DNA of 64,000 nt. Source: Halobacillus salinarum (lineage in GTDB: Bacteria; Bacillota; Bacilli; Bacillales; Halobacillaceae). Shown here piece after piece: positions 19,001 to 31,465 of this stretch; within the stretch, counting starts at the first letter, position 1; each line of letters opens with the position of its first letter. Position numbers and translations under genes: made by a program. The notes beneath the pieces were generated by a model. That model was not told where the DNA came from. It was given only the letters and a program-made list of their open reading frames with translations, and did no database searches. The DNA is taken from the NCBI RefSeq assembly GCF_022919095.1, contig NZ_CP095073.1, forward strand, positions 3,472,001 to 3,536,000, in the 5' to 3' direction.

Positions 19001-20113
19001 ATGAAAGGATCTGTAAAAAAAGATGGTTCTACCTGGTACTACGTAGTCTCATTAGGAAAGAAACCGAACGGCAGATTAAATCAGAAGAAAAAAAGAGGTT
19101 TTAAGACCAAAAGGGAAGCCACTCAAGCTTTAAATGAAGTAATTGCACAATATAATAAAGGTCTATATATCGAGCCATCCAAAATGCTATATAAAGAATT
19201 TTTAACCTTATGGCTTGATGATAAAAAAATGAACGTCCAAACATCCACCTTTGAATCGTACAGACTTCTTGTTGATGTGCATATCTCCCCTTTTCTTGGT
19301 CATATTGGTTTATCAAAACTAAACCCAATGATGATTAATAACTTTTACAGTTTCTTATCTAATGAAAAAGGCTTATCAGGTACAACAATCCAAAGAATCC
19401 ATACGCTCGTTAAAGACTCGTTAAAGAAAACCGTAGAATGGGAGCTTCTTATTAAAAACCCTACAGAAAACATTAAGCGACCAAAAGCTTCAAAAAATGA
19501 GGTCACCGTCTGGACCATTGATCAGGTTCATAAATTTCTAAATGTTGCTGAAAGTGATCCTTTATTCATGGCATTCCATTTAGCCATCGCAACAGGAATG
19601 CGTCAAGGTGAAATACTTGGGGTTAGATGGACAGATTTAGATTGGGACAAAAAATTAATAATGATTAGACAAACGTTATCTCATGACGGGAAAGAGTTAA
19701 AATCTGGAGCGAAATCAAAGTCCGGAAAACGTACCATTACCCTCCCCGATGAGACAATACATTTGCTCAAAAAGCATAAGGGAAAAATGGATAACTCTCG
19801 ATCTCTCATTGAAGATATTTACAATGACCATAATCTAATTGTTTGCACAGAATTAGGCAGCCCTATTAATCCCAGTAATTTAACTCGTACTTTCAAAAGG
19901 CTTACTGACAAAGCGAACTTGAATAAGATCCGATTTCACGATTTGCGCCACACTCACGCAACGATCTTGCTATTACAAAACGTAAATCCTAAAGTAGTAT
20001 CTGAACGCCTTGGGCATTCCGATGTTCGATTAACATTAGATACCTATAGTCATTTACTACCTAACATGCAAAGAGAAGCAGCTGACAAAATACATGAGGC
20101 TCTTTTTAACTAA
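19001..20113 (+). CDS. int: Tyrosine integrase (Tn916/phage type)
   Basis: 370 residues with the usual layout: N-terminal Arm DNA-binding domain (residues about 1-50), SAM-like core-binding domain (about 60-160) and catalytic domain. Catalytic residues visible are Arg 201 (ATGMRQGE), His 313 and Arg 316 (HDLRHTH), His 339 (LGHSD) and Tyr 349 (DTYSHL). GGAGG lies upstream of the ATG. The gene ends about 135 bases from the 3' end of a tRNA-Ala gene, which is the probable attachment site. It should integrate and, with the upstream HTH protein, excise the element. Confidence 0.95.
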   Translation: MKGSVKKDGSTWYYVVSLGKKPNGRLNQKKKRGFKTKREATQALNEVIAQYNKGLYIEPSKMLYKEFLTLWLDDKKMNVQTSTFESYRLLVDVHISPFLGHIGLSKLNPMMINNFYSFLSNEKGLSGTTIQRIHTLVKDSLKKTVEWELLIKNPTENIKRPKASKNEVTVWTIDQVHKFLNVAESDPLFMAFHLAIATGMRQGEILGVRWTDLDWDKKLIMIRQTLSHDGKELKSGAKSKSGKRTITLPDETIHLLKKHKGKMDNSRSLIEDIYNDHNLIVCTELGSPINPSNLTRTFKRLTDKANLNKIRFHDLRHTHATILLLQNVNPKVVSERLGHSDVRLTLDTYSHLLPNMQREAADKIHEALFN

Positions 20114-23971: not shown

Positions 23972-24014
23972 CCATTTAATTGAAACGAAGCCAGTTGCAA
24001 GGCTTATTTCAATG

Positions 24015-24679: not shown

Positions 24680-24703
24680 AACCGCCTCCTGAAGAGACGG
24701 TTA
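24680..24703 (-). terminator. Terminator of the trp operon
   Basis: AACCGCCTC (24680-24688) pairs with GAGACGGTT (24694-24702). On the minus strand the stem begins within the trpG stop codon and ends in seven T. Confidence 0.9.
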
Positions 24704-25285
24704 TCGAATGAGAGCTTTTGCACGCTGAGTGATTAAGTTTCTTATAAGCTTTTTGCCATCATTAGTCCCTATGGATTCGGGATGAAACTGAACGCCTTCT
24801 ATCGGGTAATCTAAATGACGAAGGCCCATAATTTCACCTTCTATCGTCGCTGAGCTTATTTCAAAACACTCTGGGAGGTCTTCTAATGTAACGATCAGCG
24901 AATGATAGCGCATTGCTTCCATCGGATTGTTTAATCCGCTGTAAATCCCCGCTCCATCATGATGAATTTCTGAAGATTTGCCGTGCATCAGCTTGTCAGC
25001 ACGCACGACTTTACCGCCAAAGCTTTGGGCGATTGCCTGATGACCAAGGCAGACGCCAAACATAGGGATTCTGCCTTTAAAGTAGGGGATGACTTCCATC
25101 GTGACCCCTGTTTCATCCGGAGAACAAGGGCCGGGCGATAAAAAGATCAGCGCTGGATCAAGCTCTTCGATTTCTTCCAGAGTTACTTCATCATTTCTTC
25201 TGACAACAATTTCCTCACCTAATTCACCTAGATACTGGACTAAATTGTACGTAAATGAGTCATAATGGTCGATCATGTAAATCAT
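24701..25285 (-). CDS. trpG: Anthranilate synthase component II (glutamine amidotransferase)
   Basis: 194 residues. It releases ammonia from glutamine for anthranilate synthase and possibly also for p-aminobenzoate synthesis. Motifs: LSPGPCSPDETG (oxyanion region), nucleophile Cys in GVCLGHQAIAQSFGG, catalytic His-Glu in GVQFHPESI. It is the last gene of the operon, 34 bases after trpA. In B. subtilis trpG sits in the folate operon instead. The ribosome binding site lies within five GAG triplets spaced by two bases, the signature of TRAP translational repression. Confidence 0.93.
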   Translation of the reverse strand: MIYMIDHYDSFTYNLVQYLGELGEEIVVRRNDEVTLEEIEELDPALIFLSPGPCSPDETGVTMEVIPYFKGRIPMFGVCLGHQAIAQSFGGKVVRADKLMHGKSSEIHHDGAGIYSGLNNPMEAMRYHSLIVTLEDLPECFEISSATIEGEIMGLRHLDYPIEGVQFHPESIGTNDGKKLIRNLITQRAKALIR

Positions 25286-25308
25286 CTCTGCTCAACTCCT
25301 CTCTGCTC
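25286..25308 (-). promoter_or_regulatory. Candidate TRAP site over the trpG ribosome binding site
   Basis: Read as mRNA there are five GAG triplets, each separated by exactly two bases (plus-strand CTC at 25306, 25301, 25296, 25291 and 25286), and the last directly precedes the ATG. The ribosome binding site AGAGGAG is inside the array. Tryptophan-activated TRAP binds such arrays and blocks ribosomes. Fewer perfect repeats than the usual 9-11 are seen; weaker CAG triplets lie upstream. Confidence 0.8.
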
Positions 25309-25319
25309 TTGCTGCTGGC

Positions 25320-26117
25320 TTACTTTACGAGTTCATGAAGCTCCTTCGTGAATCGGTCTAAAGCAGCTGTTTGTTCTTTTTCCAGTCCATCCAGTTCATT
25401 CTCGATCAGGCGGATGATTTTACTGCCGATTATGACGCCGTCCGCATGCCCCCGCACAAGCTTGACGTGTTCATTCGTCGATATTCCAAACCCAACGGCC
25501 ACAGGCACAGGACTGTATTCTTTTACTTTTTCAATGAACGTTAACACTTCCTTAGACATTTCATTACGTTCACCGGTAACGCCAAGTGTGGATACACAGT
25601 AAAGGAAACCCTTCGCTTTTTCTGCGATTCTCTGAATCCGCTGATCAGAATTCGGAGCAACGAGTGAAATAAATTCTACATCATTCTCTTCTGCCTGCTT
25701 GCGGAAGTCTTCGCTTTCTTCGAATGGCAGATCCGGTACAAGTACTCCTTCTGCCCCATTTTCACTGAGCATAGCAAAGAATTCATCGTGGCCAAGCTGC
25801 ATGACAGGATTGTAATAGGTGAATATGACAACAGGGATCTCTACTCCGCGCTTTCTTAATTGGGGAACAAGTTCGATCGCTTTTCTCAGTGACATTCCTG
25901 AGTCAAGCGCGCGCTTGGCAGCTCGCTGAATGGTAGGTCCGTCGGCAAGCGGATCAGAATAGGGTACTCCTAGTTCTAAAACATCGGCTCCTGCTTCTTG
26001 TAGACGGAGGGCGAATTCAATCGTTAATTCCGGTGTTGGATCTCCCGCTACGACAAAAGGAATAAATAAGTCTTTGGTCTTCGTAAGCTTCCCTTGGAAA
26101 GAAGTTTTCGTAATCAT
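25320..26117 (-). CDS. trpA: Tryptophan synthase alpha subunit
   Basis: 265 residues from ATG 26117, just after the trpB stop; the longer frame has no start signal. It cleaves indole-3-glycerol phosphate to indole and glyceraldehyde 3-phosphate. Catalytic Glu in LELGVPYSDPLADGP with the catalytic Asp of that loop, and the phosphate-binding VGFGIS and GVIIGSKI. GAGGAGGTC upstream overlaps the end of trpB. Confidence 0.97.
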   Translation of the reverse strand: MITKTSFQGKLTKTKDLFIPFVVAGDPTPELTIEFALRLQEAGADVLELGVPYSDPLADGPTIQRAAKRALDSGMSLRKAIELVPQLRKRGVEIPVVIFTYYNPVMQLGHDEFFAMLSENGAEGVLVPDLPFEESEDFRKQAEENDVEFISLVAPNSDQRIQRIAEKAKGFLYCVSTLGVTGERNEMSKEVLTFIEKVKEYSPVPVAVGFGISTNEHVKLVRGHADGVIIGSKIIRLIENELDGLEKEQTAALDRFTKELHELVK

Positions 26118-26118
26118 C

Positions 26119-27312
26119 CTAGACCTCCTCCTCAAGCCGCTGCATGAGTGTTGCCATATCTTTATCGCCACGGCCGGATAAATTAATTAATATCGTATCC
26201 TCTTTGTCCATTCCGCCAGCTTCCTTAAAAGCCTGGGCAAGTGCATGAGCACTTTCAATGGCAGGAATGATGCCTTCGGTTTCCGTCAAAAGCTTCAATG
26301 CATCAAGTGCTTCCTGATCAGTGACCGCCTCATAACGGACGCGTTTCGATTGAAACAACTGGGCATGCTCAGGTCCAATACCTGGATAATCAAGTCCGGC
26401 AGAAATGGAATAGGGCTCGGTAATCTGGCCGTTTTCATCCTGCATTAAATAAGTAAGGGAACCATGAATCACTCCCGGCGTACCTTTACTTAACGTCGCT
26501 GCGTGTTCAGGTGTGTCGATTCCTTTTCCAGCAGCTTCTACTCCAACCAGCTCCGCATCGTCTTCTAAAAACGGATAGAACATTCCCATCGCATTGCTTC
26601 CACCACCGACACAGGCGTAAATCCGGTTAGGCAGGCGGTCTTCGACTTCGAGGAACTGTCGTTTGGATTCATCTCCGATGACGCGTTGAAAGTTACGGAC
26701 CATTTTCGGATATGGGTGGGGCCCCACGACAGAACCGATTAAATAAAAGTGGTCCTCACAGTTGGCTACCCAATAGCGGATCGCTTCATTAGTGGCATCT
26801 TTTAAGGTACCGTTCCCGCTGGAGACAGGAATCACTTCCGCCCCGAGCAGCTTCATACGGAAGACATTCAATTCCTGACGGCGGATGTCCTCCTCGCCCA
26901 TAAATACTTTGCACGCAAGGCCAAACTTGGCTGCTACTGTGGCGGATGCCACTCCATGCTGACCGGCGCCGGTTTCTGCGATGATTTTTTCCTTGCCCAT
27001 TCGTTTGGCTAAGAGAGCCTGACCGATCGCATTGTTCAATTTATGGGCTCCTGTATGATTTAAGTCTTCTCTTTTCAAATAGATTTTTGCACCATCTAAT
27101 TGCTTCGTCAGTTGACCGGCAAAGGAAAGCGCCGTCGGACGTCCACCATATTCCTCAAGAACGTGATGGTATTCTTCAATAAATTGCGGGTCATCCATCG
27201 CTTCATTAAGGGCATCTTCCAGCTCCTGCAGCGGTCCCATGAGTGTCTCCGGGACGTATTTTCCTCCAAAATCTCCAAATCTTCCTTTCACATCAGGAAA
27301 CACTTGTAACAT
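26119..27312 (-). CDS. trpB: Tryptophan synthase beta subunit
   Basis: 397 residues, normal length. It condenses indole with serine using pyridoxal phosphate. The PLP lysine is in [15 protein letters not shown], the phosphate-binding glycine loop in GGGSNAMG, and the catalytic Glu in ETGAGQHG. It overlaps trpF by 20 bases. Confidence 0.98.
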
Positions 27313-27952
27313 GGCGGTCCACCTCTTTCATGATTGCTTGAATCTTCGCTAAATCCTTTTCTTCATTTGTTTCTATGCCGCTCGAAATATCGATCCCTTC
27401 CGGCTGGTAATCCATTAACTTCCCAATATTACCGGGATTAATTCCGCCAGCAACGAGAAAAGGAACATCCTGGTACTGAGCTAAAGAGCGGTATTGAGGA
27501 ACGGCCTTCCAATCAAAAGCGACCCCTGTGCCTCCTGAAGCTCCATTTACTTTAGAGTCAATCACATAGCCATCCGCTACGCCTTGAAACACATACATCT
27601 GCTTTAACCCATTATCCTGGTGATGAATCACTTTCCATATAGGGAGACCAAACGTTTCCTTCAGCTTTAAAATCTCCGAAACCGTTTCATTGCCATGAAG
27701 CTGAATGACATCCAGCGGCACAAACGTAAGGACCTCTTCTATTTCTTCAATGGTCGGCTCTTTAAATACACCAACAAGCTTCTGCGCTGGACGTACGTGC
27801 TTCAACCACTGGCCCACCTTTTCCGGGCGGACATACCTCTTAGTCTGACGCACAAAAATGAATCCCAGGTGTGAGGCACTGGCCGAGCTGCTTTTAACAA
27901 GATCACTGAGGGAGCGGTTGCCGCACAGCTTGACTACTGGTTCCTTAATCAT
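27293..27952 (-). CDS. trpF: Phosphoribosylanthranilate isomerase
   Basis: 219 residues. It converts phosphoribosylanthranilate to the enol-carboxyphenylaminodeoxyribulose phosphate. Catalytic Cys is in VKLCGNRS and the catalytic Asp in [10 protein letters not shown], with phosphate-binding VAGGINPGN. Its ATG overlaps the trpC stop (ATGA). The N-terminal VKLCG is shifted from the usual VKICG. Confidence 0.95.
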
Positions 27953-28710
27953 ACCCTCACCCCGTTCATTAACGTGTTTACGGCTTGACCAATATGATCC
28001 TGCTTAATTAGAGATTCTCCGACGAGCACCGCATCTGCTCCATAACTGACAACCTGCTGGAGGTCATCATAGGTAAAGATTCCACTTTCTGATACGAGCA
28101 GCGATTCTTTTGGTGCAAGCTTCGCCATGCGTTCGGTTTGCTCAAGCTTCGTTTCAAACGTATGAAGATCACGATTGTTAATACCGAGAATTTGGGGAGT
28201 AAATTCCTTTAATACTCCTTCAAGCGTCTCCTCACTGTGCACCTCCACAAGTACTTCAAGACCAAGCTCTTCCGCTTGTAAATACAGCTCATGAAGCTTC
28301 TTCGGTTCCAGAGCTTCACCGATAAGCAGGATGGCATCGGCACCAATATAAGAACTTTCAATCACTTGCAATGCATCTATGATGAAGTCTTTACGCATAA
28401 CGGGGACTCTCACCACTTTCTTAATGTCCGTCAAAAAATCGCGATGACCCTGAAAAAAGTGCTGGTCAGTCAGGACAGAAATGGCTTGCACGCCAGCTTT
28501 ATCATAATCGTGACCAATCTTTACCGGGTTAAAGTCCTCGCGGATAATCCCCTTCGATGGAGAAGCTTTTTTCACCTCCGCAATCAGGCCGGCTGAATAA
28601 GGAGAATTCTGCAGGGAGTTCTTGAAAGAAACGTGCTCGGCCGGCTGTTCTTCGGGTAGATAAAGTTGTTCGATTTCCTGTTTTTTGATAGCTAGGATCG
28701 TTTCAAGCAT
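27949..28710 (-). CDS. trpC: Indole-3-glycerol phosphate synthase
   Basis: 253 residues. Conserved [11 protein letters not shown], the catalytic lysine in [19 protein letters not shown] and VSESGI are all present. It closes the indole ring in the pathway. Overlaps trpD by 8 bases and trpF by 4, indicating translational coupling. Confidence 0.97.
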
Positions 28711-29725
28711 ATTGGCGATTCTCCTTTGCTACGGTGATGGTATAGAAATACTGTTTCACTGTGCCGGATTTGAGGGCTTTCGTTACTTCTTCTACCCCTT
28801 CTTTTAGATCTTTCACTTTGCCTGCCACATAGAGGCCTGCTGCAGCATTCATTGTGACAATCGCTGTGGCACTTTCATTGGCTGTACCTTCTATGATTTG
28901 CTTAATAATGGCTGCACTTTCTTCTGTGCGCGTGATTTGAATGTCTTCAAGCTTGCCGGTTTTTAAACCTACGTCCTCAGGTGTAAGAGTGAAACGGCGG
29001 ATTTCTCCGTCCTTAAGCTCGACAAGGTCGGTGGTCCCTGTCACTGTAATTTCATCCAGTCCGTCTCTTCCCGTGGCTAACAATACATGCTTCGAGCCAA
29101 TCTTATGAAGTGTTTCTGCCATTTTTTCTGCATAAGCTGTATCATAAATGCCGATCAGCTGACGCTTTGCATTAGCAGGATTAGCCATAGGTCCAAGTAA
29201 ATTGAACACCGTTCTAAACCCAAGTTCCTGACGGGCAGGACCTGCATGTTTCATCGCTTGATGATAAAGCGGGGCAAACATGAAGGTCATGCCATTTTCC
29301 TCTAATGCTTTCATTCCTTGCTCAGGTGTCGTGTCGATTGGTACTCCAAGCGTCTCTAACACATCTGCACTGCCACTTTTCGAGGATACTTTACGATTCC
29401 CATGCTTAGCTACTTTTACACCCATGGCTGCAAGTACGATGGAAACGGCTGTAGAAATATTAAAGGTTGACGCTCCGTCTCCCCCGGTTCCACACGTATC
29501 CACAATTCGATCATCTTCTATGCTGAGCTTCGTCATATTTGCTCTCATTGCCTGGACAAACCCGGTCATTTCCTCCACCGTTTCTCCGCGGTACCTAAGC
29601 ACACTAAGCATGCTCATTAACTGCCCCGTGGTGACCTTGCCTTTCATAATCGTATCCATTATTTCATAAGCTTCCTGTTCGGTTAAAGTTTCTCCAGCTA
29701 CGACTTTGCTCAACGTTTGTTTCAT
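28703..29725 (-). CDS. trpD: Anthranilate phosphoribosyltransferase
   Basis: 340 residues. It adds the ribose phosphate from PRPP to anthranilate. PRPP-binding [27 protein letters not shown] and the substrate-binding GPMANPANA are intact. The ATG overlaps the end of the downstream-shifted trpE frame (ATGA at 29725-29722), which shows where trpE is meant to end. Confidence 0.97.
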
Positions 29726-31229
29726 TTCGTCTCCACTCCTTCTCGGCTCTGCTCAAATACCTGCTCTGCTAATTGAATAGTTCTTTTCAAGGCACTGGCT
29801 TTATTAATGGTTTCCTGAAACTCAGCTTCCGGGTCGGAATCTGCTACAATTCCCGCTCCGGCTTGGATGTAAACTTGGTTATTGATGAGTGTCATCGTCC
29901 GTATCGTAATGCAGGAGTCGATGTTTCCATCAAAGCCTAAATAGACAATGCCCCCCCATATAGCTGACGCGGCGTTGGTTCCAGTTCTCTTAGAATTTGC
30001 ATTGCTCTGACTTTCGGCGCCCCGGACAAAGTACCCGCGGGATAGGAGGCAATTAAAGCATCAATCGGTGACACGCCCTCCTTCAAAGTCCCTGTGACCT
30101 TGCTGATGATGTGCATCACTTTGGAGAAACGGCCGATGGTCATATATTCCGGGACCTGCACCGATCCGAACTTGGCAACACGCCCGATATCATTCCGCGC
30201 GAGATCGACGAGCATGCGGTGCTCCGCCTGTTCCTTCTCATCAGCCAGCAGATCCTCTTCAAGCGCAAGGTCTTCTTCCTCGGTTTTCCCTCGTTTGCGT
30301 GTGCCTGCAATCGGATGAATCTCAAGCTGTCCTTCCTGAACTTCAAGTAACCGCTCAGGCGAACTGCCGATTACTTCAAGCCCCTGGAATTTCAAATAAA
30401 ACATATAAGGGGATGGATTGACTTTTCTCAGCACGCGATAAAGCTGAAACCCTGTGCAGTTCGTGGAGGACTGAAACCTTTGCGAGAGTACGGCTTGAAA
30501 AATGTCCCCTGCGCGGATATATTCTTTAATCTTCTCCACATCAGCTTTGTATTTGTCTGGTTCATAGTTACTCTTTAATTGAAAATCCTTTGCTTCTCCC
30601 TGTTCATTTCCAAGCATCAGATCAGGTAGAAAGCTATGATGAGTCAGCCTTCTTTTTACTTCCTTAATCCGCTTCATCGAGTTCTCAAACTCTGTATCAA
30701 GCTCAGTTTCTTCATTCAGCCTTGAAAAAGAAAGAATCGTAGTTTCTTTTGTTTTATGGTGATAGGCAATTAATGTCTGGCAAAATAATAAATGATAATT
30801 GGATAAGTTCAAATCGTCTTCCACAGCTCTCGGGACAGGTTCATAATCAGATATGGCATCATAACTGATATATCCGACGCCGCCGCCTTTAAAAGGAAGT
30901 GGAACTTCCGCTTCTTTTACTTGCAGGACGTCTACGACTTTTTGGAAAGCTGCTTTTAACGAGGCTTCCTCCTGCTTTTCTTTCGTATGAAAGTCATGGA
31001 TCACAAAAGGCTCCCCTTCTTGCTTGATCTCAATCATCGGATCAAGACCGATGAACGAGTAATTGGACCAGGGGGATTCAGGATCCTGACTTTCAAGCAT
31101 ATATACAGCTTCCTCCTGAAGGGCGTGAAACATGTGAATAGGTGTTAAAGTATCGGTAAAAAAGGATTGTGTTACAGGAATGGTACGGTAATGATCAGCA
31201 TCCCGTACAAAATTCTGATATGTGGTCAT
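29722..31229 (-). pseudogene. trpE: Anthranilate synthase component I, frameshifted near the 3' end
   Basis: Without the shift it would be about 502 residues. Conserved N-terminal LLES (VYMLESQDPESPWSNYSFIGLDP), HPIAGTRKRG and ASYPAGTLSGAPKVRAM are present. The first frame reaches RQLYGGAL and stops at 29937. Adding one base near the run of seven G (plus-strand C at 29951-29957) restores YLGFDGN, AGAGIVADSDP and a stop at 29722 overlapping the trpD start. The family has GGAI at this point, which an extra A would give exactly. Either a recent mutation causing tryptophan auxotrophy, a frameshift resolved by slippage, or a sequence error. Confidence 0.9.
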
Positions 31230-31238
31230 AGGCTCACC

Positions 31239-31259
31239 TCTCCATATTGGGTATGGAGA
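31239..31259 (-). promoter_or_regulatory. Hairpin holding part of the trpE ribosome binding site
   Basis: In the mRNA TCTCCATA pairs with TATGGAGA around a 5-base loop (plus-strand 31252-31259 with 31239-31246). The second arm includes the GGAG part of the GGAGAGGTG ribosome binding site. In B. subtilis TRAP binding lets a similar hairpin hide the trpE ribosome binding site; the same role is inferred. Confidence 0.65.
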
Positions 31260-31353
31260 ATGAGACGTTGAGGTGTATCTAAGGGGGATGAAAAAAAGTT
31301 ATGCGAAACCGGCTAAGGCGATTAGACAGCTCCTTCGTCCGTCGTTCCCTAAG

Positions 31354-31419
31354 CTCACTATGCTCTGCTCATCCTCTTCCTCAACTCTGCTTCTCTCATT
31401 CTCTTACTATACTAGTCTC
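31354..31419 (-). promoter_or_regulatory. TRAP binding site in the trp leader
   Basis: Read as mRNA, about twelve GAG or UAG triplets (one AAG) follow each other at spacings of mostly 2-3 bases. Plus-strand CTC/CTA occur at 31417, 31412, 31407, 31401, 31395, 31385, 31380, 31374, 31368, 31363, 31358 and 31354. This is the signature of the 11-subunit tryptophan-activated RNA-binding protein. It lies within the trpE leader, about 125 bases before the start. Confidence 0.93.
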
Positions 31420-31436
31420 TACACTTTCAAACAGTG

Positions 31437-31465
31437 TATAAAATTCACACAATATTGTCAACCAT
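31437..31465 (-). promoter_or_regulatory. trpEp: trp operon promoter
   Basis: On the minus strand TTGACA is followed after 15-17 bases by a TATACACT -10 region, placing the transcript start shortly before the TRAP triplets. Confidence 0.7.

Follow-up and report, generated by a model that had tools for sequence, protein, structure and literature searches.

A candidate TRAP-binding site on trpG within the trp operon of Halobacillus salinarum and its relatives

We identified a row of five GAG triplets over the ribosome-binding site of trpG, the last gene of the trp operon in a 64,000-nucleotide stretch of the Halobacillus salinarum genome (hereafter the window), and a further array over the ribosome-binding site of trpD in the same operon. 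Taking three statements together, we consider it highly probable that the trpG array is a ribosome-binding-site-type TRAP site, that the trpD array is another, and that trpG moved here from the folate operon. The GAG rows would then very probably let TRAP block translation inside an operon that is already controlled at its start. Most of what is known about TRAP, a textbook RNA regulator, comes from a single species, and TRAP is not known to use more than one binding site per transcript. In B. subtilis, trpG lies in the folate operon and serves both folate and tryptophan synthesis; a TRAP site on the gene in that operon is said to have been described by Babitzke in 1994, Yang in 1995 and Du in 1997. 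According to three papers (PMC13170310, PMC4347634, PMC11255114), TRAP that has bound tryptophan keeps ribosomes from binding at trpG, trpP and ycbK, and changes the fold of the trp leader, with trpE attenuated and its Shine-Dalgarno sequence hidden.

The operon lies on the minus strand of the window in the order trpE (from 31229), trpD, trpC, trpF, trpB, trpA and trpG (to 24701), with a G/UAG array in the leader, which agrees with the first-pass annotation in placing trpG last in a trp operon that has its own leader site. We measured arrays as chains, a chain being the longest run of G/UAG triplets with spacers of two or three bases, counted for trpG within 70 bases upstream of the gene. The features of the operon are:

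31433-31461, minus strand: sigma-70-like promoter (TTGACA-17-TACACT) ahead of the leader, by consensus match alone (15 such sites against 11.0 in shuffles)
31349-31414, minus strand: G/UAG-rich stretch of the trp leader, with a chain of 8 (spacers of 1-4) or 6 (spacers of 2-3)
31233-31264, minus strand: predicted hairpin enclosing the trpE Shine-Dalgarno sequence, 3' of the leader array (fold, -16.0 kcal/mol)
29937-31229, minus strand: trpE frame, 430 aa, with an early end in the present assembly
29731-29771, minus strand: proposed further TRAP site covering the trpD ribosome-binding site, made of seven G/UAG triplets (one long spacer) and lying within the 3' end of trpE
28703-29725, minus strand: trpD
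25320-28710, minus strand: trpC, trpF, trpB and trpA; across the family, chains at the starts of these genes stay at 3 or below
25309-25321, minus strand: weaker CAG and AAG triplets that extend the trpG array to seven NAG (spacers of 2-4) and overlap the trpA stop
25286-25308, minus strand: proposed TRAP site of five GAGs set two bases apart, which covers the trpG ribosome-binding site up to the ATG
24701-25285, minus strand: trpG (194 aa), the final gene of the operon, for the glutamine amidotransferase subunit of anthranilate synthase
24680-24702, minus strand: terminator-like hairpin at the end of trpG, by consensus match alone (9 such sites against 8.0 in shuffles)

No Rfam family, T-boxes included, matched at gathering scores between positions 24000 and 32500 of the window, or in two loci of the family (L117 and L109), which speaks against a T-box-controlled trp operon. 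At 29937-29965 (minus strand), the trpE frame of the window stops right after a run of seven Gs, about 190 bases before trpD. The frame is open to the trpD start in 41 of the 42 family loci checked (all but L097), so intact copies occur in the family; the early stop reflects either misassembly of the G run or a trpE that is truly broken.

Read from 25308 to 25286 on the minus strand, the proposed trpG site is GAG-CA-GAG-AG-GAG-TT-GAG-CA-GAG, followed directly by the trpG ATG. This bears out the earlier description of five GAGs at two-base spacing running over the ribosome-binding site to the start codon. The array sits within the 34-base gap between the trpA stop codon (25322-25320) and the trpG ATG, and comprises five G/UAG triplets, or seven triplets if all NAG with spacers of 2-4 bases are counted. 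The exact five-GAG pattern occurs once in the window, where allowing one mismatch adds only the overlapping copy, and gave no match in 100 dinucleotide shuffles of the window; a backwards search is void as a control for this pattern, which is its own reverse. Predicted folds of the trpG and trpD regions do not exceed those of shuffles in stability (z = 1.05 and 0.74, respectively), but the trpG fold draws some of the GAGs as paired. Across the whole H. salinarum genome we found two exact matches, one at trpG and the other at trpP (G000:C1:3190357-3190379, locus L002), where the array ends one base before the ATG in the same layout. In B. subtilis, TRAP is known to act on trpP (PMC11255114). 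With five GAGs at each gene, either both sites work with five or both are weak.

A search for mtrB, the gene for TRAP, had been proposed as a check on the site. We found mtrB in the H. salinarum genome, in all 44 genomes of the family and in 140 of the 150 genomes searched. Aligned to the solved TRAP structure 1c9s, with a numbering shift of two that we infer for the 1c9s chain, MtrB keeps E36, K37, K56 and R58, the residues listed as RNA contacts in PMC4027176. The same paper gives seven or more G/UAG triplets for stable TRAP binding, and a review describes TRAP sites as 9-11 NAG triplets (PMC4347634). Set against these values, the window's trpG array has five G/UAG triplets, below seven, and seven NAG; its trpD array has seven G/UAG triplets with spacers of 2-9 bases. 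A search for anti-TRAP gave no match in the H. salinarum genome, with a profile family that also matches three non-Bacillus control genomes.

We next consider the family as a whole, a set of 44 genomes of about 172 Mb (summed from rounded sizes). trpG directly follows trpA in all 44, and each has a chain of at least 3 at trpG, so the array is not lost in relatives with the same operon, a comparison suggested by the first-pass annotation. Only four genomes stay at a chain of 3; in 40 the chain is 4 or longer, and in 29 it is 5 or longer. Dinucleotide shuffles attain a chain of 5 in 24 of 8800 cases. The exact five-GAG pattern has 19 matches in 18 of the 44 genomes, 18 of them at trpG and one at trpP, and the arrays of the other 26 genomes are looser. 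At the starts of trpA (44 loci), trpB (43), trpC (42) and trpF (42) in the same loci, the chain never exceeds 3. One relative has trpA split into two matches (G032:C1:3910393-3911186), with trpG next as usual.

We aligned the 44 trpG upstream regions on the Shine-Dalgarno GAG and compared them column by column. For the three inner triplets, A and G are conserved in 98-100% of genomes; for the two outer triplets the figure is 91-95%. First bases are freer: those of the two upstream triplets are G or U in 34 and 40 of the 44 genomes, the outermost upstream triplet begins with A or C in 10, and the last triplet begins with A in 5. Among the eight spacer columns, four vary widely, one varies moderately (75%) and three are conserved. 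The conserved three are the AG ahead of the core GAG, which belongs to the Shine-Dalgarno sequence, and a C that follows the fourth triplet; two of the spacer columns equal the triplets in conservation. Column conservation thus follows the grammar of a TRAP site in large part, and the C after the fourth triplet is something a TRAP site has no need of. Because these genomes are related, the counts do not represent independent events; a stronger argument comes from how far spacers and first bases have diverged.

The same columns bear on a rival explanation, in which the GAG row is a strong purine-rich Shine-Dalgarno region that no regulator recognizes. One of the GAGs is indeed part of the AGGAG core, and this core with its preceding AG is the most conserved part of the alignment. 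The conserved pattern, however, extends from about 10 bases before the core GAG to 12 bases after it with a five-base period, and the trpA, trpB, trpC and trpF starts of the same operons show no such pattern.

A further contrast comes from folate-type trpG genes, for which we collected 69 trpG starts from other families in which trpG does not adjoin trpA; a pabB match is present in 66 of the 69 stretches, and for the other three (L190, L206 and L208) the folate-type label is not shown. Genomes were scored as having two TrpGs if they held two matches to the window TrpG at E = 1e-35 or better. Where mtrB occurs with a single TrpG (46 genomes), the chain at the folate-type trpG averages 3.07; it is at least 3 in 30 of these genomes and 2 or less in 16. 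In genomes with mtrB and two TrpGs, the chain at the folate-type trpG is 0 or 1 in 17 of 17. Genomes lacking mtrB have a chain of 2 or less in six of six, five of which have two TrpGs (chain 0-2). Three of the two-TrpG genomes with mtrB have a trp operon in the order trpEGDCFBA, preceded by two T-boxes, and the trpG of this operon lacks an array. Arrays therefore tend to mark the trpG copy that serves tryptophan in TRAP-type operons, a trend not predicted if the GAG row is only a Shine-Dalgarno region. Taking together the other starts of the operon, the column period and this folate-type contrast (0 or 1 in 17 of 17 with mtrB, 0-2 in five of five without), we judged a plain Shine-Dalgarno region very unlikely as the explanation. 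The array is not universal among single-TrpG genomes with mtrB, and its shortness in 16 of the 46 counts against the TRAP reading.

The three genes with no pabB match ahead (family f16) are each the single trpG of their genome and carry G/UAG triplets; they are perhaps a third gene arrangement.

The first-pass annotation had suggested that a shared need for TrpG in folate synthesis might explain the site, and had proposed looking for a separate pabA. We located pabA beside pabB at about 789.6 kb of G000:C1, away from the trp operon, and rejected an amphibolic trpG/pabA shared with folate synthesis on account of this separate pair; the missing array at folate-type trpG genes of two-TrpG genomes also speaks against the suggestion. 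Behind pabA-pabB lies what we take to be a pabC-like gene, going by sub-threshold matches to NCBIfam 'hypothetical' models and its position. At L218:4239-5962, in the H. salinarum genome near 790 kb, separate frames encode pabB (368 aa) and the pabC-like part (184 aa); in the relative G036 they form one frame of 579 aa.

The trpD array extends the pattern to a second start codon within the operon. Of the 43 family loci retrieved, L138 stops short of trpD; the other 42 all carry a chain of 5 or 6 at the trpD start. The window, counted separately, has a chain of 5, or 7 allowing one long spacer. A search of the 44 genomes with a pattern derived from the trpD sites gave 43 matches, 40 at the trpE/trpD junction, three in the trp leader and none elsewhere; given how the pattern was derived, the junction matches are expected, and the weight of the result rests on the absence elsewhere. 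Run backwards, the pattern gave 39 matches, of which 35 lie within trp loci, divided between the region upstream of trpD (19) and the leader (16), because a GAG row fits the reversed pattern too, and about four lie elsewhere. We also read 40 loci from other families, 37 of which hold trpE. The trpD chain never passes 4 in these: L247, L259 and L267 account for two chains of 3 and one of 4, and the other 37 loci have 2 or less. G074, a genome of another family, has a trpD chain of 5. L143 and L144 (family f2), which also have trpG behind trpA, have trpD chains of 5 and 4, with an uncertain trpD start codon.

This array lies in the coding sequence of trpE, and could be a by-product of the C-terminal protein sequence of TrpE, whose tail (..AE-x-x-FE-x-S/R-x-EGVE..) is conserved. 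We resampled synonymous codons in 42 trpE tails including that of the window, holding the Shine-Dalgarno codons fixed and leaving out L097, which has a stop in the tail frame. The observed trpD chains had a median P of 0.0145 per genome with a maximum of 0.058, so that one genome alone is not decisive. We counted tail sites by codon position, so that tails shifted by one codon fall outside the counts; at the three array sites glutamate is always encoded by GAG (38 of 38, 39 of 39 and 42 of 42), but the non-array glutamate of the tail is GAA in 41 of 42, and upstream in the same trpE frames GAA is the commoner codon (157, against 95 GAG). Each of the 36 serines at tail site -8 is encoded by AGC or AGT, although TCN is commoner upstream (222 against 66). 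We read the resampling and codon results as good, though not conclusive, support for selection acting on the RNA at the trpD array. With the rarity of long trpD chains in other families also against it, we regard a by-product of the protein sequence as unlikely.

Both arrays also bear on the idea that the trpG array is a remnant, carried along when trpG moved and no longer bound by TRAP. Such a remnant would fit with triplets fewer than the 9-11 NAG of TRAP sites, an exact form retained in a minority of genomes and an operon already under leader control. It fits poorly with AG dinucleotides kept in 91-100% of the 44 genomes while four spacer columns diverged, with a spacing stricter than in the folate-type trpG of single-TrpG genomes (mean chain 4.70 against 3.07), and with a trpD array of 5-6 in the family that is unmatched in the 40 other-family loci. 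We consider this explanation highly improbable, and prefer a trpG array that TRAP still binds.

To ask where the trp-operon trpG came from, we compared folate loci. In a synteny reading of eight named relatives, out of 80 loci, folP follows trpG in all eight, cysK precedes it in seven (the exception being L029) and a pabB match precedes it in seven (the exception being L036). In the H. salinarum genome cysK adjoins folP, with folB and folK behind, and pabB-trpG is absent between them. Family folP loci were available from 30 of the 44 genomes: cysK lies 112-436 bases away in 28, and the stretches of L277 and L282 (the latter only 2303 bases long) contain no cysK. Within about 1.5 kb on either side of folP, none of these 30 loci has a match to trpG, pabA or pabB.

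We then built a TrpG tree from 70 of 142 sequences, taking every fourth family row and every second folate row and flagging long branches. The family's trp-operon TrpGs form a clade with that of G074 (100/99), and this clade joins folate-operon TrpGs (83/91) at a weak fork (80/69); the PabAs of three family genomes lie far off on long branches. These data fit a relocation in which trpG, under TRAP control, left the folate operon and settled at the end of the trp operon, while a different PabA assumed the role in folate synthesis. Root and direction of this move are inferred. The earlier suggestion of an evolutionary step between the two gene arrangements thus gains from the missing pabB-trpG between cysK and folP and from the folate-type grouping, and stays tied to the weak fork. 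Among the matches listed, trpG directly follows trpA in at least eight further genomes of four other families; the TrpG copies of families f36, f2 and f17 fall outside the family's trp-operon clade, so the placement may have arisen more than once. In L145 and L146 (f17) and L140-L142 (f36), trpG sits right behind trpA with G/UAG triplets and encodes a TrpG of other lineages, and these are possibly independent moves of trpG.

These comparisons suggest the following model. With tryptophan present, the MtrB ring would bind the GAGs between the trpA stop and the trpG start and keep ribosomes off the trpG Shine-Dalgarno sequence and start codon, so that TrpG translation would drop even on messages that have passed leader control. 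The array in the end of trpE would block trpD in the same way. The operon would thus hold three TRAP sites, in the leader (acting on trpE and read-through), at trpD and at trpG, and TRAP most likely represses leader/trpE, trpD and trpG separately. The first-pass annotation had proposed that tryptophan acts twice on trpG; the leader and trpG arrays agree with this, and the trpD array, which it had missed, makes control at the leader, trpD and trpG possible. Against the TRAP reading, the trpD array sits where ribosomes terminating on trpE are expected to strip TRAP from the message. Ribosomes finishing trpE should indeed clear TRAP at trpD, and the site would matter once trpE translation is down. 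At trpG only the 34-base gap would be free of trpA ribosomes, perhaps the reason for a short and strict array. In the folate operon trpG would already have been under TRAP control before it moved, and folate synthesis would now be served by the separate PabA. We lean, by a modest degree, towards a broader version of this model: a three-site operon in which tryptophan shuts off anthranilate synthase and the enzyme after it cistron by cistron, in which trpG and its site moved as one regulatory module and the internal sites are short to fit between ribosomes.

Among the closest known systems is trpG of the B. subtilis folate operon, which shares with our case the gene, the position at the ribosome-binding site, the G/UAG triplets and mtrB in the genome. 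Unlike that gene, trpG here is the seventh gene of the trp operon, stands behind a leader site as well and is accompanied by a separate PabA, and its array has five strict GAGs (seven NAG) rather than 9-11 NAG. B. subtilis trpP (yhaG) has a site of the same ribosome-binding-site type, and the trpP of H. salinarum has the same two-base layout of five GAGs as trpG; trpP differs in lying outside the trp operon, with no leader site of that operon ahead of it. The trp leader resembles that of B. subtilis in its G/UAG-rich array and in the predicted hairpin over the trpE Shine-Dalgarno sequence. Control of trpD in B. subtilis runs through coupling to trpE, whereas here trpD carries a separate array. 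PMC13170310 counts trpD of B. subtilis among the translational targets. The tandem T-box trpEGDCFBA operons of related families (L223-L225) likewise have trpG inside the trp operon of a genome with mtrB, but there trpG lies between trpE and trpD behind two T-boxes and has no array.

In a literature search that covered titles, the starts of abstracts and some passages, with most subscription papers outside its coverage, we found no description of a TRAP site on trpG within a trp operon and, in the same scope, none of an array on trpD. TRAP control of trpG is known; its placement in the trp operon and the trpD array were not found in the literature searched. Candidate internal sites throughout a family offer a natural test of cistron-level control added to a leader, of the minimum number of triplets in a TRAP site and of how a regulatory site travels with its gene when operons are rebuilt. 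Our comparison suggests that the array follows the gene's job: it tends to occur on the trpG copy with a role in tryptophan synthesis, and is absent from the folate-type copy when there is a second TrpG.

Elsewhere in the window, translations show a tyrosine-recombinase-like integrase at 19001-20113 (plus strand), with replication-like genes upstream and neighbours from about 15 kb. This region near the trp operon looks like an integrated element.
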